Shown: piece by piece, positions 9,191 through 64,000 of the stretch | Numbering within the stretch: the first letter of the stretch is position 1 | Layout: each line of letters opens with the position of its first letter | Origin: Radicibacter daui | Lineage (GTDB): Bacteria; Pseudomonadota; Alphaproteobacteria; Radicibacterales; Radicibacteraceae | Reading direction: 5' to 3' | Length of the DNA stretch: 64,000 nucleotides | NCBI GenBank assembly: GCA_030657355.1 | Contig: CP131057.1 | Location: forward strand, 703,501-767,500 | Notes under the pieces: model-generated | Seen by the model: only the letters and a program-made list of their open reading frames with translations | What the model was told of the DNA's origin: nothing | Database searches by the model: none | Program-made: the position numbers and the translations under genes

Positions 9191-9200
9191 CCGGACACGA

Positions 9201-10775
9201 TCAAGCTTGGCCAAGGATCAACGCCCCTATCTGGCTGGCGCTGGCGCCGGCCGGTAACTCGCCGACCATCCGGCCGGCACTCATGACAAGGATGCGGCTG
9301 GCAAGAGCCCGCACCTCTTCCACATCCTCACTGATCAGCAGGCAGGCCGCACCGCCCGCCACCGCCTTGCGGATGGCGGCATGCACGAAGGCGCAGGCCT
9401 TGACGTCCAGCCCGCGTGTGGGCGAATGCGCCACCAGCAATTTCACCCCGCTGCCGCTTTCTTCCAGCTCCCGGGCCAGCAGCAATTTCTGCGCGTTGCC
9501 GCCGGAGAGCAGGCGCGCCCGCCGCGCCGGCGTGGCGCCGGCAATGGCAAATGCCTCAATCGCCTGCTCCGCCTCGCGTTTCATCCGGCGGCGCCCGACC
9601 AGCCAGCTGCCGAGCCGGCTGCGATAGCGCCCGGTGCGCACGCGCGTCAGCGCCAGATTATCCGCAACACTCAGCTCACCGATCAGGGCGCTGGCAAAGC
9701 GGTCGGATGGCACCACACGCAGGCCGAGATCGCGCCGTCTGGCGACGGAAAACTCTCCAAGCTCCCAGCCATCCAGCGTCAGATGTCCGCCGGCAACCGG
9801 CAGCAACCCGACGATGGCCTCGGCAAGGGCCTGCTGCCCGTTGCCACCCACCCCGGCCACGCCCAGAATTTCGCCGGCTTTCAGCGTGAAGCCCACATCG
9901 CTGACGCCGACACTGCCCTGCCCGCCACCGGCATAAAGGGCACTGACGATCAGCCGTTCTTCGCCCGGCTTTGCGATGGTTATCGGGGCAGCCGCTTCTA
10001 TCACCCCGGCTTCCGCGGCCTCGGCCGGGCTCGTCTCTTCCCCCATCATCAACCGGCCGAGATCGCCGGCGCTGAGCGTGCCGACCGGCGCGCCGGAAAT
10101 AACGGTACGGCCAGCCCGCATGATGGTCACGCGGTCGCTGTGGCCAGCCACTTCGCGCAGCTTGTGGGTGATCATCACCACCGCCCGCCCCTGCGCCGCA
10201 ATCTTGCGGATGGCCAGAAGCAGGGCGCCGGCCTCCTGATCCGTCAGCACCGCCGTCGGCTCGTCGAGAATGACGATGCGGGCGCCCAGTGCCAGCACCT
10301 TCAGGATTTCCACCCGCTGGCGTTCGGCAACCGAAAGCTCGCCGACGATGGCCGCCGGATCGACGGCAAGGCCCACTGCCTTGCCGGCTTCCATCGCCGC
10401 CCGGGCCGCCTCCCCGGCATTGGCGAAGAGACCGAGCTGGCCGGAGGCCAGCAGCACATTTTCCGCGACCGTAAACCGGTCCACGAGGCGGAAATGCTGA
10501 TGCACCATGCCGATGCCGGCTTTCAACGCGTCCTTCGGACCCCGGATGCCGGCTGGCGCACCATCGATCAGATAGCGCCCGCCCTCCGGTGCATAAACGC
10601 CGGTCACGATGTTCATCAGGGTGGATTTGCCGGCGCCGTTTTCCCCCAGCAGCGCATGGATTTCGCCGCGCTTCAGGTCGAAGGCGGCGCGGTCGAGCAC
10701 ACGCACGCCATCGAAGCTGCGCGATACACCGGAAAGGGCGAGCAGCGGGGCCGTTTGCGGCCCCGCTGTTCCCAT
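9201..10775 (-). CDS. Nucleoside-type ABC transporter ATP-binding protein with two ABC domains
   Basis: This 524-residue protein fuses two ATPase domains, as in RbsA and NupA-type proteins. The first has Walker A GENGAGKST (about residues 44-52), the signature LSVAERQRVEILK and Walker B IVILDEPTAVL. The second has the degenerate loop GVGGNGQQ and signature LLSGGNAQKLLLARE, a family-typical asymmetry. ATG at 10775 is used; an in-frame GTG at 10793 would add six residues. Neither start has a strong Shine-Dalgarno, consistent with coupling to the binding-protein gene 32 bases upstream. Confidence 0.92.
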   Translation of the reverse strand: MGTAGPQTAPLLALSGVSRSFDGVRVLDRAAFDLKRGEIHALLGENGAGKSTLMNIVTGVYAPEGGRYLIDGAPAGIRGPKDALKAGIGMVHQHFRLVDRFTVAENVLLASGQLGLFANAGEAARAAMEAGKAVGLAVDPAAIVGELSVAERQRVEILKVLALGARIVILDEPTAVLTDQEAGALLLAIRKIAAQGRAVVMITHKLREVAGHSDRVTIMRAGRTVISGAPVGTLSAGDLGRLMMGEETSPAEAAEAGVIEAAAPITIAKPGEERLIVSALYAGGGQGSVGVSDVGFTLKAGEILGVAGVGGNGQQALAEAIVGLLPVAGGHLTLDGWELGEFSVARRRDLGLRVVPSDRFASALIGELSVADNLALTRVRTGRYRSRLGSWLVGRRRMKREAEQAIEAFAIAGATPARRARLLSGGNAQKLLLARELEESGSGVKLLVAHSPTRGLDVKACAFVHAAIRKAVAGGAACLLISEDVEEVRALASRILVMSAGRMVGELPAGASASQIGALILGQA

Positions 10776-10806
10776 GATTTCAGAAGCTGTCACGGGATAT
10801 CTGGCC

Positions 10807-11937
10807 TTACTGGGCAGCCGGCACCGTACCGATGGAGCCTTCCACCAGATAATCCATGTTCCACAGGCCTTCATCGTCGATGGTCTGGCCTTCCGGCACG
10901 GCAATCGAGCCATCCTGCTTCTTCACCGGGCCGGTATAGGGCGAGAAGGTGCCCGCCACCATTTCGGCCTCGGTCTTCTCTATCTTCGCCTTCACTTCGG
11001 CGGGGATCTTGGCGGAGAGCGGGGAGAGGCTCACCACATGCTGGTCCATGCCGACGAGCGCGCCATATTCCTGCGGCTCCCAGGTGCCGGCAATAATGTT
11101 CTTGATGGTCGGGATCAGGTAGTTCTGCCACTGGAACAGAACGGAGGTGAGATGCCCGTTGGGCGCCGCCGCCGACTGGTCAAGCTGGAAACCGACGGAC
11201 CAGGCGCCGCGCTTTTCAGCCGCCGTGTAGGGGGCGGTGGAAGACAGGTTGTTGGCAATCACGTCCGCACCCTGGTCGAGCATGGCCTCCGCCACCTGCC
11301 CTTCCTTGACCGGATCCCACCAGGAGTTGGTGTAGATCACGATGGTTTCGGCGCTGGGGTCGATGGAGCGCGCACCGAGCGTAAAGGCGTTGATGTCCCA
11401 GTTGACGACGCCGGCCGGGAAGCCCGCCAGCATGCCGAGCTTGTGGCTCTTGGTCACGCCGCCGGCGGCCATGCCCGCCAGATACCAGCCCTGATAGGTG
11501 CGGGCGTAGAAGCTCTCCAGGTTCTTGTCGTTGGTGATCTGCGAGGCACCGAGGAAAGCGACATCCGGATATTTCTTGGCGGCTTCCAGCGCACCGTCGG
11601 AATAACCGTAGCTGGTGGTCACGATGATGTTGAAGCCGCGCTTCACATAAAGATCGATGGCGTTCATGACCGCCGTCGTCTCTTCCGGAATGCTCTCGGA
11701 GACGGCGATCTTCACGCCCAGTTCCTTCTCGACATCCTGGCGGGCATTGTCGATGGCCTCGTTCCAGCCACCGTCGCGGGCGGTCGCGGCATAGATGAAG
11801 GCGATCTTCGGCTTGCCCTTGAGCGTAAAGGCCTCGGCCTCGGAAGAAGCACCGGCAAAGGAGAGCGCGGCAGCGCCGGCGAGCATCATGCCCATGACGC
11901 TGCGCCGCATGATCCTGGTCATCGAAAGACGGCTCAT
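10807..11937 (-). CDS. BMP-family ABC transporter substrate-binding protein
   Basis: This 376-residue periplasmic protein has a Sec-type signal (about 1-36, ending EAEAF) and the BMP/PnrA opening KIAFIYAATARDGGWNEAI. PnrA-like proteins bind purine nucleosides, and some relatives bind other heterocyclic compounds. A Shine-Dalgarno (GGGGG) precedes the ATG. An imperfect hairpin lies between it and the upstream oxygenase gene, so its level may be adjusted after transcription. Ligand identity is inferred from family only. Confidence 0.9.
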   Translation of the reverse strand: MSRLSMTRIMRRSVMGMMLAGAAALSFAGASSEAEAFTLKGKPKIAFIYAATARDGGWNEAIDNARQDVEKELGVKIAVSESIPEETTAVMNAIDLYVKRGFNIIVTTSYGYSDGALEAAKKYPDVAFLGASQITNDKNLESFYARTYQGWYLAGMAAGGVTKSHKLGMLAGFPAGVVNWDINAFTLGARSIDPSAETIVIYTNSWWDPVKEGQVAEAMLDQGADVIANNLSSTAPYTAAEKRGAWSVGFQLDQSAAAPNGHLTSVLFQWQNYLIPTIKNIIAGTWEPQEYGALVGMDQHVVSLSPLSAKIPAEVKAKIEKTEAEMVAGTFSPYTGPVKKQDGSIAVPEGQTIDDEGLWNMDYLVEGSIGTVPAAQ

Positions 11938-11982
11938 CTTGAAAACCCCCTGTTTTCTGGCTGAAACGGAATGCCGGGAGGC

Positions 11983-12032
11983 GCCGGAAACGGACAGGGG
12001 CGGCTCTTGTGCGCGCCCTGCCGGTTTCCGGC
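11983..12032 (-). other. Intercistronic stem-loop between oxygenase and BMP-binding-protein genes
   Basis: GCCGGAAAC (11983-11991) pairs with GTTTCCGGC (12024-12032), and the stem continues imperfectly inward with GG/CC and CAGGG/CCCTG. There is no T-tract, so mRNA stabilisation or processing is more likely than termination. Confidence 0.5.
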
Positions 12033-12042
12033 CCTCACGGGA

Positions 12043-13104
12043 TCAATGGGTGGACGCGGCCTCTTCGCCGGACGGCTTCTTGAGATAGGCGAAGGTGTCG
12101 TTGAAGCGCGAATTGATGTAGTCGCCGGCGGTAATCGCCGGATACTGCGCCGGGCGCTCCGGCCCCTGGCAGGTCTCGAACACCTCGATCAGCGTCTGCG
12201 AATTCGGGCCGAAGAAGAACGGGATGGAATAACGCTCCCTGCCGGAGCGGTTGATCGCCCGATGCACGGTGGAGGCGAAGTAGTTGTTGGTCCAGCGGGC
12301 CATCATGTCACCGACATTGACGACAAAGGTGCCGGGGATCGGCGTGGCGTTGATCCACTGGCCGGCACTGTTCAGCACCTGCAGCGCCTGCACATCCTGC
12401 TGCTGGGCAAGGATGGTAAAACACTCATAGTCGGAATGGGCACCGATGCCGATCTGGCGATCATCGACCGGCCCATGCTGGCTTGGATAGTGCAGCACGC
12501 GCAGCTGCGCCGTCGGCTTGGTGATCAGCGGCGCGAAGAAATTCTCGTCGATCTCCAGCGCCAGCGCGAAGGCGCGGAAAATACGCTCGCCGAAAGCGCG
12601 CACCTCACCATAATAGCGGTCCATCGCTTCATGGAAGCCCGGCAGTCCTTCCGGCCACTGGTTCGGGCCATAACCGAACACGCCCGCCTTGTAGTCGGCA
12701 TCGTCGGTGGAGACCTCCAGCGCCATGTCGAAGGCTTCGTGCAGGTCACCGCGGGCGGTGGGGTCGGTGTTTTCTTCCAGCAGGGGCACATAACCACGAT
12801 GGTGGTTGGACTTGCTGATATGGATTGCCTGCTTGGTCTCCATCGGCAGGGCAAAAAAGCGCCGCGCCGCCTCGAAGGTACCGCCCAGTGCCGCGTCGCT
12901 CACGCCATGGTTCCTGGCATAGAAAAAGCCAACCCTGGTGCAGGCGTCCCGCACGGCGGCGCCTACGGCGCGGCGGGCTTCCTCGTCCCCGTTCAGCATC
13001 GGGCCGAAATCGATCACCGGAATTTCAGTGAAGGGAATGTCCGCACCGGTAAGACCGGAAGCGACGAACTGGCGCGGGCCATTGCCCGTATGGATGACTG
13101 ACAT
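12043..13104 (-). CDS. Isopenicillin N synthase-like Fe(II)/2-oxoglutarate-type oxygenase
   Basis: This 353-residue soluble enzyme belongs to the isopenicillin N synthase/2OG-Fe(II) dioxygenase superfamily. It has an N-terminal DIOX_N-type region (FTEIPVIDFGP, about 26-35), the metal triad H223-x-D225 (HSDYE) and H281, and the RxS motif R291-Y-S293 that in 2OG enzymes binds the cosubstrate. It probably hydroxylates or oxidises a small metabolite. It is the first gene upstream of the BMP nucleoside-type transporter on the same strand, so the imported compound may be its substrate or product precursor; that is inference. Confidence 0.85.
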   Translation of the reverse strand: MSVIHTGNGPRQFVASGLTGADIPFTEIPVIDFGPMLNGDEEARRAVGAAVRDACTRVGFFYARNHGVSDAALGGTFEAARRFFALPMETKQAIHISKSNHHRGYVPLLEENTDPTARGDLHEAFDMALEVSTDDADYKAGVFGYGPNQWPEGLPGFHEAMDRYYGEVRAFGERIFRAFALALEIDENFFAPLITKPTAQLRVLHYPSQHGPVDDRQIGIGAHSDYECFTILAQQQDVQALQVLNSAGQWINATPIPGTFVVNVGDMMARWTNNYFASTVHRAINRSGRERYSIPFFFGPNSQTLIEVFETCQGPERPAQYPAITAGDYINSRFNDTFAYLKKPSGEEAASTH

Positions 13105-13378
13105 TGCTGGAGGTACCTGAAGTGGGGGCAGTGACCTCCGGAGTCTGTCTGGAAACCCCTGAGGCTGGCTTCAAACTCGCAAGCCACATGCCATGCCCGG
13201 CTTCAGGCAATGATGCCATCGCCCCTGCGGGCTACGCCCTTCTGTGCAGGGTTCATTTCCCGCCGTCACCCCGCCCAGCCCGAATGCAACTGCTTAATTT
13301 TCATTCACTTTTTTTGCAGCCCGCCGCGCCATGGACGTTGGGGGCACCGGGCTACACATCAAGTTATGAACAAAGCCC
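13105..13378. other. Intergenic region upstream of the oxygenase operon and flagellin promoter
   Basis: No convincing gene is seen. It should hold the oxygenase-operon promoter (minus strand), but no clear sigma70 hexamers or strong inverted repeat were found. The right end becomes AT-rich where the flagellin promoter block begins. Confidence 0.4.
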
Positions 13379-13424
13379 TAAAATCGAGGCGAAAGGCCGA
13401 TATATAAAATTTTAGCCAAATTTA
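13379..13424 (+). promoter_or_regulatory. Probable flagellin promoter block, copy 1
   Basis: TAAA at 13379 followed after 13 bases by GCCGATAT resembles the flagellar sigma28 consensus (TAAA-N15-GCCGATAA), with a spacer two bases short. The AT-rich palindrome TAAAATTTTA just downstream, and the rest of the block, are conserved at the same offset upstream of the second flagellin (15893-15935). Confidence 0.5.
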
Positions 13425-13460
13425 TTTTTTATCTTGCGCAACTGAGGCAACTTGCCACAG

Positions 13461-13537
13461 TTATCGGAAAGCCATGAAGGCTTTGGCGGTCCTCAGGGGT
13501 GGATACGCCAACCATCGCAAGAAGCGAGGAACCGGAA
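13461..13537 (+). promoter_or_regulatory. Conserved flagellin mRNA leader with three hairpins, copy 1
   Basis: This leader differs from the one before the second flagellin at only a few bases. It can fold as AGCC-ATGAA-GGCT (13470-13482), GGCG/CGCC (13485-13488 with 13506-13509) enclosing CC-TCA-GG, and TCGC-AAGAA-GCGA (13515-13527), which abuts the GAGGA ribosome-binding site. In Caulobacter, FlbT acts on a flagellin mRNA leader; a similar role here is inferred. Confidence 0.5.
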
Positions 13538-15751
13538 ATGATTTCCGTTGGCACCAACACCGCTGCGCTGACCGCCAAGCGCAATCTCGACATCAACAGC
13601 AACAATTCCTCATCGTCGATCGCCCGCATGTCCTCGGGCACGCGCATCAACAAGCCGATGGACGACGCGGCCTCGCTCTCCATCAGCAACAAGATGCGCT
13701 CGACGATCTCGTCGCTCGGGCAGGCTGCGCGCAACGCCTCGCAGGGTGCATCCCTGCTGCAGGTGGCCGCTGGCGGTCTCTCCAACATCTCCGACATGCT
13801 GGATCGCATGAAGGTGCTGGCGACCCAGGTCGTCAACGACACCCTGGGCGCTTCCGAAGTTTCCTACGCCCAGCAGGAATTTGGCCTGCTGATGGACCAG
13901 ATCGACAGCACAGCCAGCCAGACCCGCTTCAACGGCACCTCGCTGCTCACCGGCGGCTCGGGCCAGGTTGAATATTCGCACAACAACAAGTCCGCCTCCG
14001 GCCTCAATTCCGCAGCCGGTGCTTTTGCCGGCACGCTGAACTCGGCCGCTTCCTCCGGCTATGTGCAACACGTCTTTGGCGCCTCCAATACCGTCGGTGC
14101 CACCGTCGACAAGGGTGTGGTCAGCCTCGCCATCGATGGGGAGACCTTCACCGGTTCCTCCAACGTCCAGGCCAGCGGCGTGCTGGTACTCACCAGCACC
14201 ACCAATGCCGGCAACAAGATCGCCTTCGACATCGGCTCGTCTGTCGCCAATATCGACACCGACAGCGAGATGCAGACCCAGATCAACAATCTGCTGGGTA
14301 ATTCGACCCTCCAGGTCGGTTACGCGGAAGGCATCTCTTTCTCAGCTCCTCTCGGCACCAACTTCGTCGGCTTCAACACCGGCTCACCGCTCAATCTTGA
14401 TGCCTCCAGCGGCGTGGTCCAGGGCAGGTCGGTTGCCGGCGATATCACCGTTACCGGCGGCCCCAGCGACTATACGGTCGAAATCGTATTGCGGGACACC
14501 AACACGCTGGTACCGACCGATACTTTCCGCGCCTCCAGCATTACCGTCACCGATGGCGGCGTGCTGAAGCTCACCAGCACCACCAACCCCGGCAATGTCC
14601 TGGCACTGAACTATGGCTCGTCGGCCTCCAGCTTCATGAGCGACGCCGCCTCCTTTGCCATCGGTATCGACCTCATTACCAGCGCCGGCACCATTGCCAT
14701 CGGCAATGAAGAAACCGCCTACGGGCTGAGTTCGGCGGCAGGCGGTTTTACCGGCGCCATCAACCACACCAACACCGTGGGTTTCATCGACGGTATCGCA
14801 AGCGGTGTCACGGTCACGAAGAACGGCTCCGCCTTCGACGTCAATCTCGTCGTCGGCAGCCAGACCTTCCAGGCCAAGGGCTTCTCCGCCACCAACAATG
14901 GCCAGCTGAACCTCATCAGCACCACCGATCAGGCGAACGTCATCTCGCTCAATCTAAGCACGGGCGCGGCGACTGCCCTCGACACGCTGCCGGAACTGCA
15001 GGTCAGCCTGCAGCGCCTGCTCGGTCTCGACCCCACCTCCGGTGCAAACCCGGCACGCTTCCAGTCCGCTTCCGCCAATAACGATGACTATAATGGCTTC
15101 GAAATGGGCGTGAACCAGACCATCAAGGCGTCCGCAACCACCCAGCCCGGCACCTACGCCCTGTCCTATGACGCCGACGACAAGACCTTCAAGCTGACGG
15201 ACGGCGTCACCGTCCTGACCGCCAAGCTCGAGAAGGATGGCGATCAGACGGTCCAGTTCTCCAATGGTCTGTCACTGACCCTCGGGTCCAGCGGCAACAC
15301 CTTCGACTGGAGCAAGGACATGACCCAGATGGTGTTCAATGTCGGCGAAGGCAGCGGCCAGAACTTCGTGTTCCAGGTCTCTGAAATCGCGGGCGACGAT
15401 CTCACCGTCAACATGACCGCCGCGACCGTCGATGCCCTCGGCCTTACCGGCATGAACATCAACACCAAGGATGATGCCCGCAAGGCCAGCATCGCCCTGG
15501 ACAGCGCGCTCAACACCGTCAACACCGGGCTTGCCAACATCGGTGCCCAGCAGAGCCGGTTCGAGTTCATCCAGGCCAACATCTCGACCCAGGTGGAGAA
15601 CTCCTCGGCAGCCCGCGGCACCTTCTATGATGTCGACATGGCTTCCGAAATGATCTCCTTCACCAAGTCCCAGACCCTGATGCAGGCCGGCGTCTCAATG
15701 CTGGCACAGGCCAACCAGATGCCGCAGCAGCTCCTGCGTCTCATCGGCTAA
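13538..15751 (+). CDS. Flagellin, long form, copy 1
   Basis: This 737-residue flagellar filament subunit has a classic N-terminal D0/D1 region (MISVGTNTAALTAKRNL, about 1-150) and C-terminal D1/D0 region ending QMPQQLLRLIG. The long centre is built of about three related modules, each ending in a phrase like LTSTTNAGNKIAFDIGS. The protein is longer than typical 270-500-residue flagellins. I chose this ATG because it follows GAGGA and matches the flagellin start; the in-frame upstream ATG lies in the leader. It is exported by the flagellar type III system. The last 240 or so residues match the neighbouring copy almost perfectly. Confidence 0.95.
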   Translation: MISVGTNTAALTAKRNLDINSNNSSSSIARMSSGTRINKPMDDAASLSISNKMRSTISSLGQAARNASQGASLLQVAAGGLSNISDMLDRMKVLATQVVNDTLGASEVSYAQQEFGLLMDQIDSTASQTRFNGTSLLTGGSGQVEYSHNNKSASGLNSAAGAFAGTLNSAASSGYVQHVFGASNTVGATVDKGVVSLAIDGETFTGSSNVQASGVLVLTSTTNAGNKIAFDIGSSVANIDTDSEMQTQINNLLGNSTLQVGYAEGISFSAPLGTNFVGFNTGSPLNLDASSGVVQGRSVAGDITVTGGPSDYTVEIVLRDTNTLVPTDTFRASSITVTDGGVLKLTSTTNPGNVLALNYGSSASSFMSDAASFAIGIDLITSAGTIAIGNEETAYGLSSAAGGFTGAINHTNTVGFIDGIASGVTVTKNGSAFDVNLVVGSQTFQAKGFSATNNGQLNLISTTDQANVISLNLSTGAATALDTLPELQVSLQRLLGLDPTSGANPARFQSASANNDDYNGFEMGVNQTIKASATTQPGTYALSYDADDKTFKLTDGVTVLTAKLEKDGDQTVQFSNGLSLTLGSSGNTFDWSKDMTQMVFNVGEGSGQNFVFQVSEIAGDDLTVNMTAATVDALGLTGMNINTKDDARKASIALDSALNTVNTGLANIGAQQSRFEFIQANISTQVENSSAARGTFYDVDMASEMISFTKSQTLMQAGVSMLAQANQMPQQLLRLIG

Positions 15752-54200: not shown

Positions 54201-54605
54201 ATGACAAGCAGCAGTGACAATCAGAGCATCCCGGCCGGGCGCCGCAGCCTGCTGCTGGTCGATGACCAGCCGATAAACCTGCTGGTGCTGCACGCAATCC
54301 TGAAGGACGAGTACGAAATCTTCATCGCCACTTCCGGCGAGCAGGCGCTGGAACTTTGCGCCGCCCGCAAGCCCGATCTCGTGCTGCTCGATATGATGAT
54401 GCCGCAGATGGACGGGCAGGAGGTCTGCCGGCGACTGAAGGCCGACCCCGTAACGCAGGGCATCGCCGTCTTGCTGGTAACGGCATGGCAGGATGAGGAA
54501 GCGGCAACGGCGGTCCGGGAGACCGGGGCCGCCGGTTTTGTTCCCAAACCGGTCGATGCCGACCTTGTGCGGGCAAGCGTCAAGGCGCTGCTGGCAGCAG
54601 CCTGA
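54201..54605 (+). CDS. Single-domain response regulator (CheY-like)
   Basis: This 134-residue receiver domain has the acidic pair D21/D22, phosphoacceptor D64 (LVLLDMMMPQMDG), T94 and K116 (FVPKPVD). No output domain follows. A Shine-Dalgarno AAGGA precedes the ATG. It ends 19 bases from the convergent Hpt gene, so the two may exchange phosphate, possibly with the histidine kinase at 62993. Confidence 0.92.
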   Translation: MTSSSDNQSIPAGRRSLLLVDDQPINLLVLHAILKDEYEIFIATSGEQALELCAARKPDLVLLDMMMPQMDGQEVCRRLKADPVTQGIAVLLVTAWQDEEAATAVRETGAAGFVPKPVDADLVRASVKALLAAA

Positions 54606-54624
54606 TAACCCTCACGAGCTTTTG

Positions 54625-55197
54625 TCAGGAAACTTTATTCAGACTACCCAGTGCCGCGCTCGCGGCCTGAAAATCCAGCCGGCTCATCGCGGCGGCAAGG
54701 TTAGCCCACTGGTCAGCCGCCATGCTGGCTTTGAGGGCAGGCTTCAGGCTGCTGAAAAGATCGAGCGCCGCCATATTGCCGGCGGCAAGGTTCGCGCGAA
54801 GCGCGACGAGATTTTTTTCGTCCGGCAAACCGGCCGGCACATCCTCTTCCGGCTCGCCCGCAAGTCCGGCTCCGGTCGAAAAGCCGGCAATCTCCTGCTC
54901 TATCGACTGCAACAACTGCGATGTCCGGTTTTCATCCCGGGTGGCGATTGCCTTTTCGGCATCCCCCGCCAGTTCGGCAAGCGAGGTCCAGCCGACATTG
55001 ACCGAGCTGCCGCGCAGGCCGTGCAGCAGCCGGGCCGCCTGCCGTGCGTCACCGGCGGCCAGAAAACTGCGGCTGCTGGCCAGCAGACCGCCCGCATTTT
55101 CCAGCAGGCTGCCGATCAGCGCCCGCAGCAATGCCTCGTTCCCGCCCAGCCGTTTTCGGGCACCCGCCCAGTCGATTGTCGCCATCGTTTCCAGCAT
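54625..55197 (-). CDS. Histidine phosphotransfer (Hpt) domain protein
   Basis: This 190-residue helical protein carries the Hpt motif LLHGLRGSS with H59 as the phosphorylatable histidine. An acidic linker and a second, less clear helical bundle follow. ATG 55197 follows AAGGGC; in-frame GTG 55233 and ATG 55185 are alternatives. As an Hpt it would shuttle phosphate between a hybrid kinase and a receiver. It is convergent with the single receiver gene. Confidence 0.8.
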   Translation of the reverse strand: MLETMATIDWAGARKRLGGNEALLRALIGSLLENAGGLLASSRSFLAAGDARQAARLLHGLRGSSVNVGWTSLAELAGDAEKAIATRDENRTSQLLQSIEQEIAGFSTGAGLAGEPEEDVPAGLPDEKNLVALRANLAAGNMAALDLFSSLKPALKASMAADQWANLAAAMSRLDFQAASAALGSLNKVS

Positions 55198-55311
55198 TGC
55201 CCTTGCCTCTGCCGTCCTGACCGCCAATTTCACTCATGGCGCCAACCGGCAATTGCAAGAAGGCCCGGGTGGAAACGATCTGCCAACGTCCCGTCACGGG
55301 CAACATATCCT

Positions 55312-55347: not shown

Positions 55348-55479
55348 ATGGAAGACTATATATCTGAATTTATTGACCCCTTTATGGCGTCGGAAAAAGC
55401 GGAGCAATTCCGCGCACTTCGCAGGCGTCTGACGTCCAGCAGCCAATCACCTTTTCCGCTTCCTTGTTCTGAATCGTAA
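55348..55479 (+). CDS. Small ORF, 43 residues, unknown
   Basis: This frame, starting MEDYISEFIDPFMASEK, has a strong ribosome-binding site (AAAGGGAGA) seven bases before ATG. Its 5' half is visibly more AT-rich than its surroundings. Its 3' end overlaps the convergent hydrolase gene, where the sequence is constrained by the other strand. No membrane segment or motif is seen. It may be a short regulatory peptide, or chance. Confidence 0.35.
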   Translation: MEDYISEFIDPFMASEKAEQFRALRRRLTSSSQSPFPLPCSES

Positions 55480-56413
55480 AATCTGTATCGGTGGGGCCCC
55501 CGCTTTGCGGATCCGTAAACCAGCGCCAGATCAGAACGTCGCCAATATGCCGCTCTTCAAAAGCAGCAAGCCAGCGGGCGAGCACCCATGCCTGCAGGGC
55601 AGGATCGGGCACGGCCTGTCTTTCCTCGGCGCCTTCCCACGGGCGTTCATTTGCCCCGCTTGCCGAGCGCAGGCCAACCTCCCCCACACCGACCGGCTTG
55701 CCGGTTTGCCGGCCAAGGGCCACGAGACGATCGGCGAATTCCGTAATGGTTCTATCCGCCGAGGCCGCGCTGTCGCCCAGCGGCGGATAGAGACTGACCA
55801 GCGCCAGATCGAGCAGTCCCCAGAAGGGCACGGCGGAAAATTCACCGTCCCAGTGCGCAACATAGCTGAGCTGCCCGCCAAAACGGCTGCGGACCCGGCG
55901 GATAAGGTCTGGCCATTCAGGGCGACTGCTGGTGCCCTTCAGCTCCGTACCAAGCGCAAGGCTTTCGGCCTTCTGCTGCGCGGCAACGGCGGCAAGACGC
56001 TCAAGCTGGTCCCCGTAGGAGGCAAACCATTGCCCCCATCCCGCCTCGTCCACGGCCGCAATGGCGCCCGCCCAGGTTCCCGGCACCCACACATGCACCT
56101 TGACCATGACCTTGAAGCCGAAGCTGTGCGCCTGGCGGATGCCGTCAGCGAGTTCATCGAGCGTGTAGTCATTGCCGAGCACGACCTTGTTACTGTCCGG
56201 CCGCGCCTGCCAGAGAAAGAACACCAGCGCCACGCTGTCCACGCCCAGCGCTTTCAGCGCGGAAAAGGATTGGGCGCACGCCTCCCCGCCAAAGGGCGAG
56301 CCGGGCGTGCGGATGAGATTGACCCCGTGCCAGCCCGTTGTTGCGGCCCGGGCCCCGGTTATCCGCACACAGGCCGCCATCAGCGGCACCGTCACGAAAC
56401 TGCGCCTTTGCAC
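55382..56413 (-). CDS. Secreted glycoside hydrolase-like TIM-barrel protein (GH113-like)
   Basis: This 343-residue protein has a short signal peptide (MQRRSFVTVPLMAACVRITGARA) and phrases of a TIM-barrel hydrolase: GWHGVNL early, FKVMVKVHVWVPGTW, LGTELKGTSSRPEW (candidate acid/base Glu), and GVGEVGLRS (candidate nucleophile Glu). This resembles family GH113 and related domains. The start is GTG at 56413 after AAGGG. It is divergent from the polysaccharide synthase operon by 53 bases, so it may trim or release the polymer, as BcsZ does for cellulose. The exact substrate is not known. Confidence 0.7.
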   Translation of the reverse strand: MQRRSFVTVPLMAACVRITGARAATTGWHGVNLIRTPGSPFGGEACAQSFSALKALGVDSVALVFFLWQARPDSNKVVLGNDYTLDELADGIRQAHSFGFKVMVKVHVWVPGTWAGAIAAVDEAGWGQWFASYGDQLERLAAVAAQQKAESLALGTELKGTSSRPEWPDLIRRVRSRFGGQLSYVAHWDGEFSAVPFWGLLDLALVSLYPPLGDSAASADRTITEFADRLVALGRQTGKPVGVGEVGLRSASGANERPWEGAEERQAVPDPALQAWVLARWLAAFEERHIGDVLIWRWFTDPQSGGPTDTDFTIQNKEAEKVIGCWTSDACEVRGIAPLFPTP

Positions 56414-56466: not shown

Positions 56467-58479
56467 ATGAAGACCATCAGCATGATTGCGACCCGGGCCG
56501 GACTGGCCGCCGCCTTTATGGCTCTCGGCCTTGCGGCCTACAGCCAGCCCGGCAACGCCGACGAAATGCCGTCTTCAGACCCGGCGGCACCGGCCGATGC
56601 CGGCACCAACAGCCCCGCGCCTCTCGTCCAGCGGCAGATCACGCTCGGGGCGCTCGGTTTCCGGGACGGGATCAGCCTCAGCGGCTTTTCCGGTAACAGC
56701 GATATCTATTTCCCGGTTCCCGGCGGCGTTGCGCTCAATGCCCTGCGGCTTGAAGGCCAGCTTAACGCCTCGCTGCCGGCCCCGATACGGGGCTCGGTAA
56801 GGTTTGATGTCGACCAGCAGCCGGTATGGAGCGCGGCGCCGGGCACCGGCCCGATCCCCTTTGCACTCTCCCTGCCGGCCCCGCGTACCGATCAGTCTTT
56901 CCTGAAGCTCGGGGTGGCCTTTGGCGCCACCTGGACGGCCAACCGCTGCGCCGACCAGCGCCTGCCGGGCGGCTTCGTTACCCTTTCCCCGCAAACGACC
57001 CTCAGCTACCGGTTTGACCCTGCGGCCATCAGCGATCTGCGCTCGGCAGTCGCCGTGCTGCCGCTGGCGGTACGGATCGGCCTTCCCGCTACCCTTGCCT
57101 CAACCGACGCCCTGCAGACCGGGCTTGCGATAGCGCTCGAGCTGCAAAAGGCGGGGCACCAGGTCTCCTTCGTGACCGCGCCTGCCAGCCTTGACGGTGC
57201 GGATGGCAAAGCCCCGTCCGCGGATATTGTGCTGCTCCCGGCCGCCGAGCTTGCCAGTCTGGCAAGGAGCAGCCCGACGGCAACGCCGGGCGCAGCGCTG
57301 CTGCATGCCGGCCGCTATCCGGTGATCGCGCTGGCGGACAATGCCGGTGCCGGCACGGCGCGCTTCCTGACCGCCGGCTGGGCCCGCCTTGCCGACGGCA
57401 CCGGCGCGCTGGTGCGGGAAAGCCAGAACGGCCCCGCCAATGCAGCAGGAACCCTCGGCTTCGCCGCCCTTGGTCTTGGCAGTGGCATCCGTGATTTTGC
57501 CGAACGCGGCGAATGGGAGGTCGGCTACGACTATCCGCTGACCCCCGGCGGCAAGAAACCTGCCGCCCTCAATATCCAGCTTATTCCGGGCTCCATCCCC
57601 TCCGGCGAGCCGCAGCTCGTCCATATCTTCGTCAATGACCTGCTGCTGCGCAGCGTCACCGTCGATGCCGGCCAGCCGTCGCTCACCGCGCATGTGCCGC
57701 TGCCGGACGGGCTACTCGGCCTGCGCAATGCCATCCGTGTGGTCCTGCAGCGCCCGGCCGCGAGTGGCTCCTGCCAGGAAGCGCTGATGGCAACGCCGGC
57801 CCAGCTCCTGCCGGGCAGCACGGTTGAGTTTGCGGATGATGCTACAAAACCGGCGGACTTCTTCCAGCTCGCTGCCGCCTTCAAGGCCGGAGTGACGGTT
57901 GAAGTGCCCAAATCCGCTCTCGCCGATCCGGTGCCCGCCCTCACCCTTGCCCTGCGCACGCTGGAAGGTTTGAAGCCCGGGGCGGAAGGCCTTGCCGTCA
58001 CGGTTGGTGATGGCCGCCAGCCTGCCACCCCCTTCGTGCTGCTTCCCGGTGCCGGCGCACCGGCCGACATCAAGCGGCGTATCGAGGCCGATGCCGGCGC
58101 GCTGCGCCTGACGGACCGCAGCGGGCGTGTGCTGCTCGATCTTTCCGGCAGCCGCGCCATCCTGACCGCCCAGCTGGTGGAAGCGGGGGGCCAACCCGGC
58201 CTGCTGCTGGAACAGGCCGGCGACACGGCCGTGCAGCCGGCAACCTTGCTGCTCGACCGGGGCAATGTGGCCTTTGCTGACGCAAGCGGCACCATCGTCG
58301 CCATGAACACGGAAAAGTCGGGCGCGCTGCAGATCGAGGTTCAGGGTGCTGCCGGTTGGCAGGACTGGATAGACCGCTTCCGCATCGCTCTCATCGTCAT
58401 TGCCTGGCTTGCCATCACTGTGCTCGCGGCGGGGCTTTTGTCCCGGCACTACCGCAAGCGCGGCCAGTCCGACAAATAA
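56467..58479 (+). CDS. BcsB-like periplasmic subunit of a polysaccharide synthase
   Basis: This 670-residue protein has a signal or anchor (about 8-25), a long periplasmic part with alternating beta-rich domains and one C-terminal membrane helix (IALIVIAWLAITVLAAGLL). The size and layout match BcsB, which guides nascent cellulose through the periplasm. A phrase near the start, GFRDGISLSGFSGNSDIYFPVP, spans the BcsB-type carbohydrate-binding region. ATG 56467 follows AGGA. It is followed within 16 bases by a cellulose synthase-like gene, in the reverse of the usual bcsA-bcsB order. Confidence 0.75.
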   Translation: MKTISMIATRAGLAAAFMALGLAAYSQPGNADEMPSSDPAAPADAGTNSPAPLVQRQITLGALGFRDGISLSGFSGNSDIYFPVPGGVALNALRLEGQLNASLPAPIRGSVRFDVDQQPVWSAAPGTGPIPFALSLPAPRTDQSFLKLGVAFGATWTANRCADQRLPGGFVTLSPQTTLSYRFDPAAISDLRSAVAVLPLAVRIGLPATLASTDALQTGLAIALELQKAGHQVSFVTAPASLDGADGKAPSADIVLLPAAELASLARSSPTATPGAALLHAGRYPVIALADNAGAGTARFLTAGWARLADGTGALVRESQNGPANAAGTLGFAALGLGSGIRDFAERGEWEVGYDYPLTPGGKKPAALNIQLIPGSIPSGEPQLVHIFVNDLLLRSVTVDAGQPSLTAHVPLPDGLLGLRNAIRVVLQRPAASGSCQEALMATPAQLLPGSTVEFADDATKPADFFQLAAAFKAGVTVEVPKSALADPVPALTLALRTLEGLKPGAEGLAVTVGDGRQPATPFVLLPGAGAPADIKRRIEADAGALRLTDRSGRVLLDLSGSRAILTAQLVEAGGQPGLLLEQAGDTAVQPATLLLDRGNVAFADASGTIVAMNTEKSGALQIEVQGAAGWQDWIDRFRIALIVIAWLAITVLAAGLLSRHYRKRGQSDK

Positions 58480-58494
58480 GGCGGGACCCTCAAG

Positions 58495-60366
58495 GTGAGC
58501 CTTTCTCCTCCTATCGGCGAGCTGCTGGTTGCCAAGGGGCTCCTGCCCCTGCCGCAGCTCGAAGAGGCCCTCAGGCTGCAGCAGACCTGGCATGTCCGCT
58601 TCGGCGACATCATCCTGTCCAAGGGCTGGGTGCGCCCGCGTGATTTCTACCGCACGCTGGCAGAGCGCTTTTCGCTCGACTTCGTTGACCTGATCGAGAC
58701 CCCGCCGGATGCGGACCTCGTCCGCTCCGGCCAGAAGGAAGATTATACCCGGCTTTTGCTGCTACCCTGGCGCAAGGAAGGCGAAACGACCGTCATCGCC
58801 ACCGCCGAGCCCGGCCCGGACGTGCTGCTCTATGTGCGCCGCAATTTCGGCCGCAACACCCGGCTGGTGGTGACCTCCAAGTTCGACATCCTGTGGAACC
58901 TGCAGAGTATCTTCGATACCGACTACAGCCATGATGCGGTGAGCAGCCTTTACGAGACCGACCCCGGCAGCTCGGCAAAACAGGTGGTCACCCCGCAGCA
59001 GGGCTTCATGCTCTACTGCATGCTGACCGTGCTTTTTGCCGGCATTGCGCTGGCGCCAATCGCAACCGTCATTGCGCTCAATCTCTTCATGTCGGTCTTT
59101 TATCTCGGCAATTTCATTCTCAAGGCCCTGCTGGTGTGGGTCGGCGCCGATTATCGCAAGGTCGACAGCAAGATCACCGATGCCGAGGTCGCGGCCCTCA
59201 AGGATGAAGAGCTGCCCGTCTTCACCGTGCTGGTGCCGATGTTCAAGGAACCGGAGGTGCTGCCCATCCTGGCAGCCGCCCTGCGCCGCCTCGACTATCC
59301 ACCAGCCAAGCTCGACATCAAGCTGGTGCTGGAAGCAGGCGACCGCGAGACCATCGATGCCGCCAAGGCGCTCGGTCTCGAGGGCAATTTCGAGATCATC
59401 CGTGTCCCGCCCTCCAAGCCGCAGACCAAACCCAAGGCCTGCAACTATGCGCTCAACTTCGCCCGGGGCGATCTGCTGGTTATCTTCGATGCCGAAGACC
59501 AGCCCGAACCGGACCAGCTGAAAAAGGTAGTCATCGCCTTCAACAAGGCGCCCACGGATGTCGCCTGCGTGCAGTGCCGCCTGAATTATTACAATTCAGA
59601 CGAAAACTGGCTGACCCGCATGTTCACGCTCGATTACTCGCTGTGGTTTGACTACATGCTGCCGGGGCTGGAGCGGCTGGGCATTCCCATCCCGCTCGGC
59701 GGCACCTCCAACCATTTCCGCATGGATGTGCTGCGCAACCTCAAGGCCTGGGACCCCTTCAACGTCACCGAGGATGCCGATCTCGGCGTGCGCCTGACGC
59801 AGAAGGGCTATCGTGTCGCCGTCTGCAATTCGACGACCTTTGAAGAGGCCAATGTCTCCATTCCCAACTGGATCCGGCAGCGCTCGCGCTGGATCAAAGG
59901 GTACATGCAGACCTATCTGGTCCATATGCGCCACCCGCTGGCGCTCTATCGCTCGGTCGGACATGGCGGGTTCTGGGGTTTCCAGTTCTTTGTCGGCGGC
60001 ACGATGCTGTCCGGCATCCTCAACCCGATCTTCTGGGCCTTCTATGCCTTCTGGCTGTTTTTCGGCGGCCATTTCCTCGACCCGTTTTTCCCGACGGTTC
60101 TGCTGCATCTCTCGCTCTTCAACCTGCTCGCCGGAAACGGGCTTTTCACCTACCTCTCCATCATCGCGCCGCTGAAGCGCGGCTGGACGCACCTCGTCCC
60201 GTGGGGCCTCACCGTGGTGGGGTACTGGGCGCTGATGTCCGTTGCCGGCTACAAGGCGCTCTGGCAGCTCATCAAAAACCCCTTCTATTGGGAAAAGACC
60301 CAGCACGGGCTCTCTGCCGTTACCAAGCAGGAAGTTGCCCGTGCCCTGCAGAGTCTCGAACAATGA
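58495..60366 (+). CDS. BcsA-like glycosyltransferase with N-terminal MshEN/GspE-N domain
   Basis: This 623-residue protein begins with a GspE-N/MshEN-type domain (about 1-115): two successive motifs, ELLVAKGLLPLPQLEEAL and FGDIILSKGWVRPRDFYR, that resemble the paired c-di-GMP-binding units of MshEN. A membrane hairpin (about 165-215), a GT2 catalytic domain with DAED (332-335), ED (426-427) and QRSRW (462-466) and further membrane segments follow. No PilZ domain lies at the C-terminus, where BcsA has one. The start is GTG at 58495, after AAGG. It should polymerise and extrude a beta-linked polysaccharide. Control by c-di-GMP is inferred from the family. Confidence 0.85.
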   Translation: MSLSPPIGELLVAKGLLPLPQLEEALRLQQTWHVRFGDIILSKGWVRPRDFYRTLAERFSLDFVDLIETPPDADLVRSGQKEDYTRLLLLPWRKEGETTVIATAEPGPDVLLYVRRNFGRNTRLVVTSKFDILWNLQSIFDTDYSHDAVSSLYETDPGSSAKQVVTPQQGFMLYCMLTVLFAGIALAPIATVIALNLFMSVFYLGNFILKALLVWVGADYRKVDSKITDAEVAALKDEELPVFTVLVPMFKEPEVLPILAAALRRLDYPPAKLDIKLVLEAGDRETIDAAKALGLEGNFEIIRVPPSKPQTKPKACNYALNFARGDLLVIFDAEDQPEPDQLKKVVIAFNKAPTDVACVQCRLNYYNSDENWLTRMFTLDYSLWFDYMLPGLERLGIPIPLGGTSNHFRMDVLRNLKAWDPFNVTEDADLGVRLTQKGYRVAVCNSTTFEEANVSIPNWIRQRSRWIKGYMQTYLVHMRHPLALYRSVGHGGFWGFQFFVGGTMLSGILNPIFWAFYAFWLFFGGHFLDPFFPTVLLHLSLFNLLAGNGLFTYLSIIAPLKRGWTHLVPWGLTVVGYWALMSVAGYKALWQLIKNPFYWEKTQHGLSAVTKQEVARALQSLEQ

Positions 60367-61946
60367 CGGCCGGCGCAGAGACGCCCGGCCTGGCAGTAGC
60401 CCCGGCAGCACCGGCCGGCCGCCGGGCTTTGCCTATCCTCGCTTTCCTCGGCGGGCTGCTTGTCTGCGGTTTGCTGACGCTGCGCGTACTCGACCACGGT
60501 TACATCAGCGAGGCTCTGGCCGCGCGCTGGACCAGCGCGCTGATGGTGACATCAGACGCGGCGGCCTTCCGCGATCTGGTCGCCGTCAACTTCCCGCCGC
60601 TGCCATTATGGTTTGATATGATACTGGCGGGCCTGCCCGCCACGGGCGGCTTGCCGCTCCCGGCGCTTGCCAGCGTGCTCATCGCCGCAATTCTGGCCGG
60701 CCTCTGGTCGCGTCAGCTTGCGGCGGCCGGATACGGCGCTGTCCTGTCGTTCCTCCTCGCCCTTCTGTTTCTGGCCCAGCCAATGCTGCAGCAGCGCCTT
60801 GCCGAGGGTTCCGGCCTGCCCTTCGGCCTTGTGGCGATGAGCCTGATGGCACCTGCCGCCTCGCGCGTGCGGCGCTATGGCAATGTCACCGCGCTTTCGG
60901 TCGTCGGCGGCGGCGTTGCCATCATCTTCTTCAGCGATCCGGCTGGCATTTACCTGCTGCTGGCGCTCCTGCCCTTCCTCGTTGCCCTAGCCCCACCCGC
61001 TTTTCTGGCACGCGCTCCCGGTGCGGTGCTGCTGGTCATCCTGTTTCCGGTCGGTATCGGACTTTTGGGATACCTCTATTCCAACTGGCTCTTCGGCGCC
61101 TCGCCCTTCGCCTTCGCCCACCAGCAAGGCACGGTACTGAAAGGCGCTGCCGATAATGCCGCCATGGTGCCCTGGCTTACCGGCTGGGGGCATACGACAC
61201 CCGGCGCCGCTCTCGCCGCAGCCTTGATGGCGCTCATTGCCCTGCCGGTCATCCCGCCCGCGCTCCTGCGGGCCTATTATCCGAGCGGGCGTTATGTCGG
61301 CATCCTGCTGGTGGTCGCCGTGCTGGTTGCGGTGCTGCTGGCCACGGCAACGCTCTTTCTGGCGCATCCCGCCCAGCTTCTGGCCTATCTCGTGCCGGTG
61401 GCGGTATTTGCCCTGTGCGAAGCCGGACCCCGCCGCCTGCAGGGCGGGCTCGCCCTGCTGCTGGCCCTGATCGGCCTTGCCGGTGGATGGCTGATGCAAG
61501 GTTTCGAGGCCCCGGCAGAAACCAACGCCTGGCGCTCTGCCATTGAGGGCACTGCTGTGGACAGCGACGCCCTCGATCACGATCTGGCCTTCGGCACCGA
61601 GCTGCGGCGCTATGACGATGTGGCGCTTGATGCGGCGTCCGCCGGCATGGTGCTGCCCAGCCGGCTCGATGCGAGCGGAATTGCCCTGCCGAATATGGAG
61701 CGCATCAAGGCCGACCTGCTTTTCGGCGCTCTTTCCACCCGGTACGTCGCCGTGCAGGAGCCCGCCAGCGAGCGCGGACGGCTGGACCGGATCGGCCGCG
61801 CTATTCCCGACCTCTGGCGCCATGGCCCACCCGGCGGCACCCTTGTCGTGGAAGAAGGGCCCTGGCGACTGTGGCGAACCGCCGTGCCGCCGGGTAAAGA
61901 ACAGGAAAACAAATCGGCCGGACCGGCCAGGGAGACCGCACCGTGA
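60363..61946 (+). CDS. Polytopic membrane protein of the polysaccharide operon
   Basis: This 527-residue protein has about ten to twelve membrane segments and a soluble C-terminal tail (about 430-527). I do not recognise a catalytic motif; it recalls GT39/GT83-type transferases or polymerase accessory proteins only in topology. Its ATG overlaps the glycosyltransferase stop (ATGA), so the two are co-translated, which argues for a joint complex. It might modify or help export the polymer, which is inference. Confidence 0.75.
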   Translation: MTAGAETPGLAVAPAAPAGRRALPILAFLGGLLVCGLLTLRVLDHGYISEALAARWTSALMVTSDAAAFRDLVAVNFPPLPLWFDMILAGLPATGGLPLPALASVLIAAILAGLWSRQLAAAGYGAVLSFLLALLFLAQPMLQQRLAEGSGLPFGLVAMSLMAPAASRVRRYGNVTALSVVGGGVAIIFFSDPAGIYLLLALLPFLVALAPPAFLARAPGAVLLVILFPVGIGLLGYLYSNWLFGASPFAFAHQQGTVLKGAADNAAMVPWLTGWGHTTPGAALAAALMALIALPVIPPALLRAYYPSGRYVGILLVVAVLVAVLLATATLFLAHPAQLLAYLVPVAVFALCEAGPRRLQGGLALLLALIGLAGGWLMQGFEAPAETNAWRSAIEGTAVDSDALDHDLAFGTELRRYDDVALDAASAGMVLPSRLDASGIALPNMERIKADLLFGALSTRYVAVQEPASERGRLDRIGRAIPDLWRHGPPGGTLVVEEGPWRLWRTAVPPGKEQENKSAGPARETAP

Positions 61947-62872
61947 TCCTGATCGTTGAAGACATGCCCGATCAGCGTTTCCTGATGCGGTCCTTGCTGA
62001 ATTCGGCAAACCTGCCCTCGCAGGAAACCGTCTCGGCCGAGCAGGGCCTGGAAGTGCTGGAGATCGGCCGCACCGATGGTCCGCCATCGGACTTCAAGGC
62101 CATCCTCATGGATGTCGAGCTGCCGGGCATCGACGGGATCGAGGCGATCTGCCTCATCAAGCAGAACCCGCGCCTTGCCGACATTCCGGTGATCGTCGTC
62201 TCCGCCCGGGAGGATGACAGCGCCCTTATCGATGCCTTCATCGCCGGCGCCATCGACTATGTCACCAAGCCCTATAGCGAGGTGCAGCTCGTCACCCGCA
62301 TCCGCGGTGCGCTGCGCCTTGGCCTGGAGGCCGACCGCCGGCGCCAGCGCGAGCGTGAGCTGCAGGCCGCCAATGCCGCCCTTACCAGCGAGCGGCGCCT
62401 CTCCGGCGCCATCGACCACGCATCCGGCCGGCCGGAGAGCGACGCCCTGCCGCTGATCGTCGGGGCCCGTGATCCCGGCCTGCTCTGGGTCCTGCGCGGT
62501 GAGGTCGACGGCTGGGCCAATCTGAAGGCGGCCGAAGGGGAACAGGCGGCCATCGCGATCAAGAAGCGCGTGCTGGATGCCCTCGCCGCCACCCAGGGCC
62601 AGCTGGGCGACCAGCTGGTGACCCTGCCCGAAGGCGGGTTTGCCGTCGTGATCGAGCGGCCGGCCAGTTTCACGCCGGTGCCTTTTGCCGAAGCACTTGC
62701 TGCCGCGGTCGTCGGGCTTGGCATCCGGCATCCGCGTACCTCCGGCTGGCCGGTCATTTCCGTCAGCATCGGCTGCGGCAGCGGCACCAATGCGGTTGCG
62801 GCGGCCGAAGCCGCGCTCAACCTTGCCAAGACCGATGTCGGCAACCGGGTCGAGATGGCGCGCCCGCTCTGA
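61943..62872 (+). CDS. Response regulator with degenerate GGDEF-like output domain
   Basis: This 309-residue protein has a receiver domain (D7, phosphoacceptor D57 in ILMDVELPG, S88, K109), a short coiled-coil linker (about 125-150) and an output domain that resembles GGDEF in layout: a strand phrase VISVSIGCG and a late ALNLAKTDVGNRVEM. The GGDEF motif itself is replaced by LPEGGFAVV, so it is unlikely to make c-di-GMP but could bind it or GTP. The GTG start overlaps the previous stop (GTGA). It is followed by a histidine kinase gene. Confidence 0.8.
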   Translation: MILIVEDMPDQRFLMRSLLNSANLPSQETVSAEQGLEVLEIGRTDGPPSDFKAILMDVELPGIDGIEAICLIKQNPRLADIPVIVVSAREDDSALIDAFIAGAIDYVTKPYSEVQLVTRIRGALRLGLEADRRRQRERELQAANAALTSERRLSGAIDHASGRPESDALPLIVGARDPGLLWVLRGEVDGWANLKAAEGEQAAIAIKKRVLDALAATQGQLGDQLVTLPEGGFAVVIERPASFTPVPFAEALAAAVVGLGIRHPRTSGWPVISVSIGCGSGTNAVAAAEAALNLAKTDVGNRVEMARPL

Positions 62873-62904: not shown

Positions 62905-62935
62905 TGATATGAGGGTTCTTTTCAGGCGCATATCA
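62905..62935. promoter_or_regulatory. Inverted repeat before the histidine kinase gene
   Basis: TGATATG (62905-62911) and CATATCA (62929-62935) form a 7-17-7 inverted repeat between the receiver and kinase genes. It may be an operator or a weak hairpin. Confidence 0.35.
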
Positions 62936-62992
62936 TGCAAGCCATGCCTTGCGGCACGCGGCGACGTTGCCCCTTTCTTCTCTGGCCGCCCG

Positions 62993-64000
62993 ATGTCCGA
63001 CCGCTTGCCTGATATTCACCCCCTCTCTCCGGCGCTGCAGCTGCAACCGCCGCCGCTTATCCGCTTTCTGGCCCTGCCACTGGCGCTGGCGATCTTTGCC
63101 TTCGACACCTTCACCAACATTCAGGGTGCGGTGGCGGTGCTCTATGTGCTGGTGCCGCTTCTGCTGCTGGGCGGGCTTTCGCGCCGGGGCATTCTGCTGG
63201 CTGCGGGCGCTTGCGCCGGGCTGACGCTGCTTTCCTTTGCCCTGCGCCATGGCATCGGGGCAGCGCCCGCAGCCATCCTGCGCTGCGCCATCGCGCTGGC
63301 GGCCATGCTCATCACAACGCTCTTGTTGCTGCGCGACCATGCCTCCCGCCTTGCCCTGCTGCAGGCCAACCGTGAGCTTTCCCGCAGCGAACACCGTTAC
63401 CGCTCCATCTTCGAGCAGACGCGGTTTTCGCTCTTCGAGCAGGATTTTTCCGCCGTTCGCAAAGCGCTCGACGCCCTGCGCCGGGAAGGCGTTACCGATT
63501 TTGCCGCCCATGCCGCGGCCCATCCGGATCTGGTCGGCGCGCTTGCCGGCAAGATCACCACCCTTGCCGTCAATGATGCCACGCTCGAACTGCTGGGCGC
63601 GCGCAGCGAAGCTGAGGTGGTGGGGCCTGCCGGCCGCTTCATCCCGGCGCAGAGCCCGGCGATCTTCCAGGTTCTGGAAGCCCTCTTCGAGGGTCGCAAT
63701 CGCTTTGAGGGCAAGGGGCAGCTGCGCACCCTTGCCGGGCAGGAACTGACGGTTCTTGTCGGCATCTCCTTTCCCGAGGATGCGGAGGAGCTGAAACGTG
63801 TCGTGGTCGGCATCGTCGATATCACCGGGCAGGAGCGCACTCAGCAGGCATTAATGGCCGCACAGGCCGAGCTGGCGCGCGCCTCGCGTATCGCCACCGT
63901 CGGCGCGCTTTCCGCCTCCATCGCGCATGAGGTCAACCAGCCGCTGGGGGCCGTGGTCATGAATGCGCAGACCTGCCTGCGCTGGCTGGCACAGGACCCG
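62993..64000 (+). CDS. PAS-domain sensor histidine kinase (truncated by window edge)
   Basis: The 336 codons present encode an N-terminal membrane region (about four segments, 22-110), a PAS-like domain (about 120-280) beginning near SEHRYRSIFEQTRF, and the first part of a HisKA domain with the H-box ASIAHEVNQPLG (H312). The ATPase domain lies outside the window. The H-box is of the FixL/DctB-like class. It follows the receiver protein by 120 bases and is the likely partner of that regulator. The ribosome-binding site is weak. Confidence 0.88.
   Translation, partial: MSDRLPDIHPLSPALQLQPPPLIRFLALPLALAIFAFDTFTNIQGAVAVLYVLVPLLLLGGLSRRGILLAAGACAGLTLLSFALRHGIGAAPAAILRCAIALAAMLITTLLLLRDHASRLALLQANRELSRSEHRYRSIFEQTRFSLFEQDFSAVRKALDALRREGVTDFAAHAAAHPDLVGALAGKITTLAVNDATLELLGARSEAEVVGPAGRFIPAQSPAIFQVLEALFEGRNRFEGKGQLRTLAGQELTVLVGISFPEDAEELKRVVVGIVDITGQERTQQALMAAQAELARASRIATVGALSASIAHEVNQPLGAVVMNAQTCLRWLAQDP

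Follow-up and report, generated by a model that had tools for sequence, protein, structure and literature searches.

An XagB/Sfz2-type polysaccharide synthase of Radicibacter daui with an N-terminal MshEN domain, a probable c-di-GMP switch

Domain architecture of the synthase

The window, that is, the whole stretch of 64,000 nucleotides of Radicibacter daui DNA that was analysed, encodes on its forward strand a GT2 polysaccharide synthase of the XagB/Sfz2 type with an N-terminal MshEN domain (58495..60366; 623 aa). The coordinates, strand and GTG start of this open reading frame were checked and are right. The first domain, MshEN_N (residues 6–58; 58510..58668), contains the predicted c-di-GMP site and is composed of two half-motifs of 24 residues each (residues 6–29 and 35–58). 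It is matched over residues 6–57 by NF053729, the c-di-GMP motif model of NCBIfam, with 47 bits against a cut-off of 38. The adjoining MshEN_C (residues 59–143; 58669..58923) is matched by Pfam PF05157 (MshEN) with 38.3 bits (E 1.3e-9, cut-off 23.1). Since NF053729 spans residues 6–57 and a normal MshEN_C half comes next, the N-terminal motif pair represents the MshEN_N half. The GT2 catalytic domain is placed at residues 242–469 (59218..59901; PF13641), with GT2 Pfam models matching between residues 242 and 522. Its catalytic motifs are DAED (332–335), TED (T425, E426 and D427), a DxD formed by D427 and D429, and QxxRW (462–466, with Q462, R465 and W466).

A scan of GTDB genomes yielded at least 578 confirmed relatives, of which the best 80 were kept; 75 of these, together with the window's protein, form an alignment of 76 sequences in which the GT2 catalytic columns are invariant or almost so. 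The AlphaFold model built from this alignment has a pLDDT of 89.1 and a pTM of 0.88. Residues 4–140 of the model match MshE with bound c-di-GMP (5htl_B) with a Z score of 18.0 and an rmsd of 2.2 over 137 aligned residues at 25% identity, and residues from about 183 to 620 match BcsA, hyaluronan synthase and other GT2 enzymes. Long helices flank the GT2 domain on both sides (167–217 before it, 481–594 after it), and in the model they read as membrane helices. A phmmer search of PDB sequences gave a concordant assignment, with PilF and MshE at residues 4–107, PilB at 6–146 and BcsA at 234–524.

The first-pass annotation had proposed an MshEN domain at the N-terminus of a cellulose synthase-like GT2 enzyme, and had suggested a PF05157 search and a structure prediction of the N-terminus as checks. 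Both agree with the proposal, as do NF053729 and the PDB matches. It had also described PilZ as missing, and this is what we found: Pfam gives no PilZ match in the synthase (E ≤ 0.01), and PilZ is matched in 0 of the 76 aligned sequences (E ≤ 0.001), MshEN at the same threshold in 74. An N-terminal MshEN fold and a BcsA-like GT2 core in one protein, without PilZ, is a real combination. In a search of the whole genome (5.06 Mb, two contigs), the synthase is the only protein with an MshEN match at E ≤ 0.001.

Genes around the synthase

Upstream of the synthase and on the same strand lies the gene for a divergent BcsB-like periplasmic partner, similar to sfz1 (56467..58479). Its frame is open from 56338, and the start is likely the in-frame ATG at 56467, ahead of a signal-peptide-like stretch. 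The window's own copy is too divergent to be matched by PF03170, and a genome-wide search for a canonical BcsB gave no PF03170 match at E ≤ 0.001. The family is matched, however, by 27 of the 30 members of the alignment of BcsB-like proteins (E ≤ 0.01), which together with locus linkage supports its reading as a BcsB-like partner.

The ATG of the next gene (60363..61946, forward strand) overlaps the stop codon of the synthase. It encodes an XagC/Sfz3-like membrane protein for which AlphaFold predicts a GT-C fold of the ArnT/PMT type (pLDDT 88.7), with PMT4 (Z 18.1, rmsd 4.5, 342 aligned residues) and ArnT (Z 17.0, rmsd 5.1, 409 aligned residues) among its structural matches. This fold search gave 50 rows, and its final three, with the O-antigen ligase WaaL at their head, have Z scores of 4.8 or below. 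None of the 19 aligned XagC-like proteins matches a Pfam family at E ≤ 0.01, and the function of Sfz3 is given as unknown by Koeksoy et al. (2021; PMC8250860). Profile searches of PDB sequences with the BcsB-like and XagC-like alignments returned nothing usable.

The following gene on the forward strand (61943..62872) encodes a response regulator with a REC domain (PF00072) and a C-terminal half alignable with degenerate GGDEF domains. REC is present in all 24 aligned regulators; 15 of them, but not the window's own, match PF00990 (GGDEF) at E ≤ 0.1, and none has the signature [GAS]G[DE]EF. This regulator gene is kept beside the synthase in many alphaproteobacteria. A histidine kinase of 559 aa overall starts at 62909 on the forward strand and runs beyond the window's end (62909..64000); it is a possible input of the response regulator. 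Directly downstream of the window, after the kinase (L136, 1672–2439), lies what its translation makes look like a FixJ-type response regulator. On the reverse strand, divergent from the operon, is a GH113 glycoside hydrolase gene of the XagD/Sfz4 type (55382..56413; PF22612, 113.4 bits). Beyond it, at 54201–55233, are genes for a single-domain response regulator (forward strand) and an Hpt-domain protein (reverse strand), possibly phosphorelay parts acting with the kinase at 62909.

The window thus contains an xag-type gene set, with a bcsB-like gene upstream of the synthase, an xagC-like gene downstream and an xagD-like hydrolase gene linked. In phmmer searches with the window's proteins over the best 80 of the at least 578 loci, some of them cut by contig ends, a BcsB-like gene adjoins the synthase in 52, an XagC-like gene lies near it in 62 and the response regulator in 49, and a GH113 gene is linked in 28.

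Relationship to the XagB/Sfz2 family and to other synthases

The synthase belongs to the already described XagB/Sfz2 family. We base this assignment on domain order, motifs, the operon and the locus of Ferriphaselus sp. R-1; Xanthomonas XagB enters it by description, not by sequence. In iron oxidisers that form stalks, Kato et al. (2015; PMC4643136) reported an xag-like cassette of bcsB-xagB-xagC-xagD-like genes. Koeksoy et al. (PMC8250860) described sfz1–6, with sfb and sfz as iron-stalk clusters, and Sfz2 as a relative of those xagB-like genes that has an N-terminal EpsE-like T2SS domain (IPR007831), a C-terminal GT2 domain and a bcsB-like partner. Because a described family already has it, the MshEN–GT2 combination is mostly ordinary. 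The entry IPR007831 given for Sfz2 is, we take it, PF05157. The MshEN motif was defined by Wang et al. (2016; PMC5013675), who mentioned glycosyltransferase fusions. In Xanthomonas oryzae pv. oryzicola, biofilm formation is elevated in an rpfG mutant and drops when xagA or xagB is deleted (PMC3609779). Judged by titles and the start of abstracts, we found no literature that names XagB or Sfz2 an MshEN protein, which is not proof of absence.

With XagB-like proteins, Sfz2 and Sfb2, the window's synthase shares the N-terminal T2SS-E/MshEN-type domain and the C-terminal GT2 domain with TED, DxD and QxxRW. E426 and D427 are invariant across all 76 aligned members, the Ferriphaselus protein included; Sfb2 is reported without a TED site (PMC8250860). 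As in the published xag-like, sfz and sfb clusters, a bcsB-like gene precedes the synthase gene, and XagC/Sfz3-like and hydrolase genes are linked. The window departs from the xag and sfz clusters in its divergent GH113 gene and in the degenerate-GGDEF regulator that follows xagC.

The Ferriphaselus locus (L055) comes from a strain included in both iron-stalk studies (PMC4643136, PMC8250860) and has the gene order BcsB-GT-XagC-GH113; its positions 7592–14636 correspond to the published candidate iron-stalk cluster. A frame of 457 residues with CxxCH lies directly upstream of this operon, where Kato et al. place cyc2. In the MshEN domain of this locus's synthase, 7 of the 12 contact residues (see below) are exact and 10 agree in relaxed form.

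Relatives are common: at E ≤ 1e-40, a sample of 289 genomes from the class has them in 36 and a sample of 398 from the phylum in 89. The two samples overlap, both count the window's genome, and some of the matches span the GT core only. Those phylum-sample genomes that have xag/sfz-type operons are perhaps, at a guess, iron oxidisers such as Mariprofundus. The best 80 of the at least 578 relatives are mostly from alphaproteobacteria, and include gamma- and betaproteobacteria, two Bryobacteraceae MAGs and one Desulfobulbaceae MAG. The nearest among the matches listed, at 79%, are Niveispirillum irakense, Niveispirillum sp. SYP-B3756 and Azospirillum sp. RU38E. A plasmid collection contained 10 records with relatives, all below 60% identity and with 'glycosyltransferase' as the best annotation. 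One of these, CP128455.1 (35211–37058; 44% identity, 98% query coverage), is labelled as a Geobacillus stearothermophilus plasmid; this would be odd for a Gram-positive host, and the record may be mislabelled or a contaminant.

Outside the family, NfrB of E. coli also combines a GT2 synthase with MshEN, and its MshEN domain binds c-di-GMP (PMC8669469, PMC8669472). In NfrB, however, MshEN is C-terminal rather than at residues 6–143, the partners are NfrA and YbcH, and the two GT domains are distant (blastp E 1.5e-5, 23% over 341 columns); the NfrB equivalog model scores 49.3 bits on the synthase, under its cut-off of 1170. With BcsA the synthase shares the fold of a processive GT2 membrane synthase and a BcsB-type partner, but it has no PilZ switch and carries MshEN at the opposite end instead. 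Fold and half-motifs are common to the N-terminal domains of MshE, PilB and PilF, which are fused to an ATPase, whereas the window's domain is fused to a glycosyltransferase. The mixed-linkage glucan synthase BgsA (PMC5567048) is likewise BcsA-like and without PilZ, and is controlled by c-di-GMP; it uses a C-terminal tail, and the sections of that report cited here describe no MshEN for it.

The first-pass annotation had inferred a different allosteric switch. The MshEN fusion stands, and a c-di-GMP switch is its probable role; such fusions, NfrB and Sfz2 were, however, already published, so the claim of a new kind falls. The synthase is one more member of the XagB/Sfz2 family, with NfrB as its functional parallel. 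What we add is that the T2SS-like domain of the family is, by its sequence, an MshEN domain with c-di-GMP-type contacts in the xag/sfz group, that XagC has a predicted GT-C fold, and that the contact residues show a pattern of erosion among relatives. A real MshEN module is therefore present in xagB-like synthases, including the candidate iron-stalk synthase of Ferriphaselus sp. R-1. It offers a concrete, testable candidate entry point for c-di-GMP in proteins for which the earlier discussion had turned on a domain of the export type and on RxxD motifs scattered along the sequence (PMC8250860). The eroded contacts in many alphaproteobacteria raise a testable question, namely how the input of a receptor domain for a second messenger can change.

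The predicted c-di-GMP site and alternative roles of MshEN

In MshE, c-di-GMP is contacted by R9, L10, G11, L25, L29 and Q32 of the first half-motif and by R38, L39, G40, L54, L58 and Q61 of the second (PMC5013675). The synthase has P6, I7, G8, L22, L26 and Q29, and R35, F36, G37, F51, L55 and R58, at these places, so that 7 of the 12 residues are identical and all 12 are allowed in relaxed form; both halves fit the relaxed motif of the same study. Three contact places hold other hydrophobic residues (I7, F36 and F51), and two polar contacts are replaced, the Arg at R9 by P6 and the Gln at Q61 by R58. NfrB, which binds c-di-GMP with a Kd of 1.0 uM (Junkermeier and Hengge 2021; PMC8669469), has a Pro (P489) at the R9 place and an Arg (R512) at the first Gln, where the synthase has its Arg at the second. 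Since NfrB binds despite these departures, such changes do not exclude binding in the synthase. Changes of G491 and G519 in NfrB impair infection by phage N4, and most other substitutions reported in PMC8669472 do not. The genome has 24 GGDEF matches, 23 of them above the cut-off, so c-di-GMP is presumably made.

The window's MshEN domain is probably a c-di-GMP switch, as suggested by the MshEN fold, the contact residues, the NfrB parallel, the conservation of the contact columns and the GGDEF matches in the genome. On balance we favour, with fair confidence, an XagB/Sfz2-type exopolysaccharide synthase in which c-di-GMP at MshEN relieves inhibition of GT2 and the polymer is exported with the BcsB-like partner. 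In the cytoplasm, c-di-GMP would bind across both MshEN half-motifs, and the bound domain would release the GT2 domain from inhibition, so that polymer could be synthesized and extruded by way of the BcsA/BcsB-like pair. Possible further steps are the addition of lipid-carried sugars by the XagC-like GT-C protein and trimming or release of the polymer by the GH113 hydrolase.

The contact residues differ markedly among relatives. In 16 xag/sfz-type loci, in which GH113 is on the same strand, 7–10 of 12 contacts are exact, and conservation is higher in the contact columns than in the other MshEN_N columns (mean majority share 0.80 vs 0.63). The window's clade (9 close relatives) has 5–7 exact contacts and all 12 in relaxed form, with corresponding shares of 0.93 and 0.86. 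This difference is weak evidence, because several contact columns coincide with hydrophobic core positions or glycines. Another 40 loci with the regulator have 2–7 exact contacts (average 4.3 of 12) and 5–9 relaxed ones, with shares of 0.61 and 0.59; MshEN can therefore persist without an obvious c-di-GMP site. Fourteen Acetobacteraceae-type loci retain 1–3 exact and 3–7 relaxed contacts. Across 81 aligned sequences, four of which have an incomplete N-terminus or none, the relaxed motif occurs twice in 10, once in 6 and never in 65; one 79% relative of the window (L007) has it once. NF053729 reaches E ≤ 1e-9 in only 20 of the 76 members, the window's among them. In most sampled alphaproteobacterial relatives, then, the contact residues are eroded and the fold is kept, often in operons with a dead-GGDEF regulator.

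This pattern gives some room to a possible though unlikely alternative, in which the alphaproteobacterial MshEN is a relic c-di-GMP receptor that now serves as a protein–protein switch driven by the dead-GGDEF regulator. Among 80 well-flanked loci, and counting as eroded those with fewer than 10 of 12 contacts in relaxed form, the regulator is near the synthase in 41, of which 35 are eroded and 6 are not; 21 of the 39 loci without it keep the contact residues and 18 do not. The lack of a GGDEF signature in all 24 aligned regulators also fits. Against it, the 6 intact regulator-bearing loci belong to the window's clade, which has the regulator yet fits the relaxed motif, and the Acetobacteraceae-type branch lost the motif without a regulator. 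On a GT-core tree of 101 rows, obtained by a quick search with SH-aLRT as the only support and with long branches that make deep joins unsure, the motif state requires at least 5 changes and the regulator at least 4. There are 3 independent pairs on starred branches and 5 on all, too few for a sign test to decide; in the 3 starred-branch pairs, the two traits occur together no more than apart. An extended version, in which MshEN was rewired in a large alphaproteobacterial branch from c-di-GMP to a docked dead-GGDEF phospho-regulator and the window's lineage is an intermediate with both inputs, we regard as unlikely.

It is quite improbable that MshEN is only a structural module with no regulatory ligand. 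The fold is kept where contacts are gone, as the 74 of 76 MshEN matches illustrate, and the linker Trp between the half-motifs, W32 (58588–58590), is retained in 76 of 81 aligned sequences even where contacts are lost. However, both the xag/sfz-type group and the window's clade conserve the contact columns more than the others, and a wider set, with 101 rows, has 9 in which a different residue stands in place of W32.

An export role of the N-terminal domain like that of the T2SS ATPase EpsE/GspE, proposed for Sfz2 in PMC8250860 and called questionable there by its own authors, is very improbable: of such an ATPase the synthase has only the MshEN part, and no Pfam ATPase domain is matched in the synthase or among the families of the 76 members. 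Finally, a classical cellulose synthase BcsA with an overlooked PilZ shares the BcsA-like fold of the GT2 core, but is contradicted by the 0 of 76 PilZ matches, by a C-terminal tail of only about 29 residues beyond the last long helix of the model, and by a CelA equivalog score of 51.3 bits against a cut-off of 699.1.
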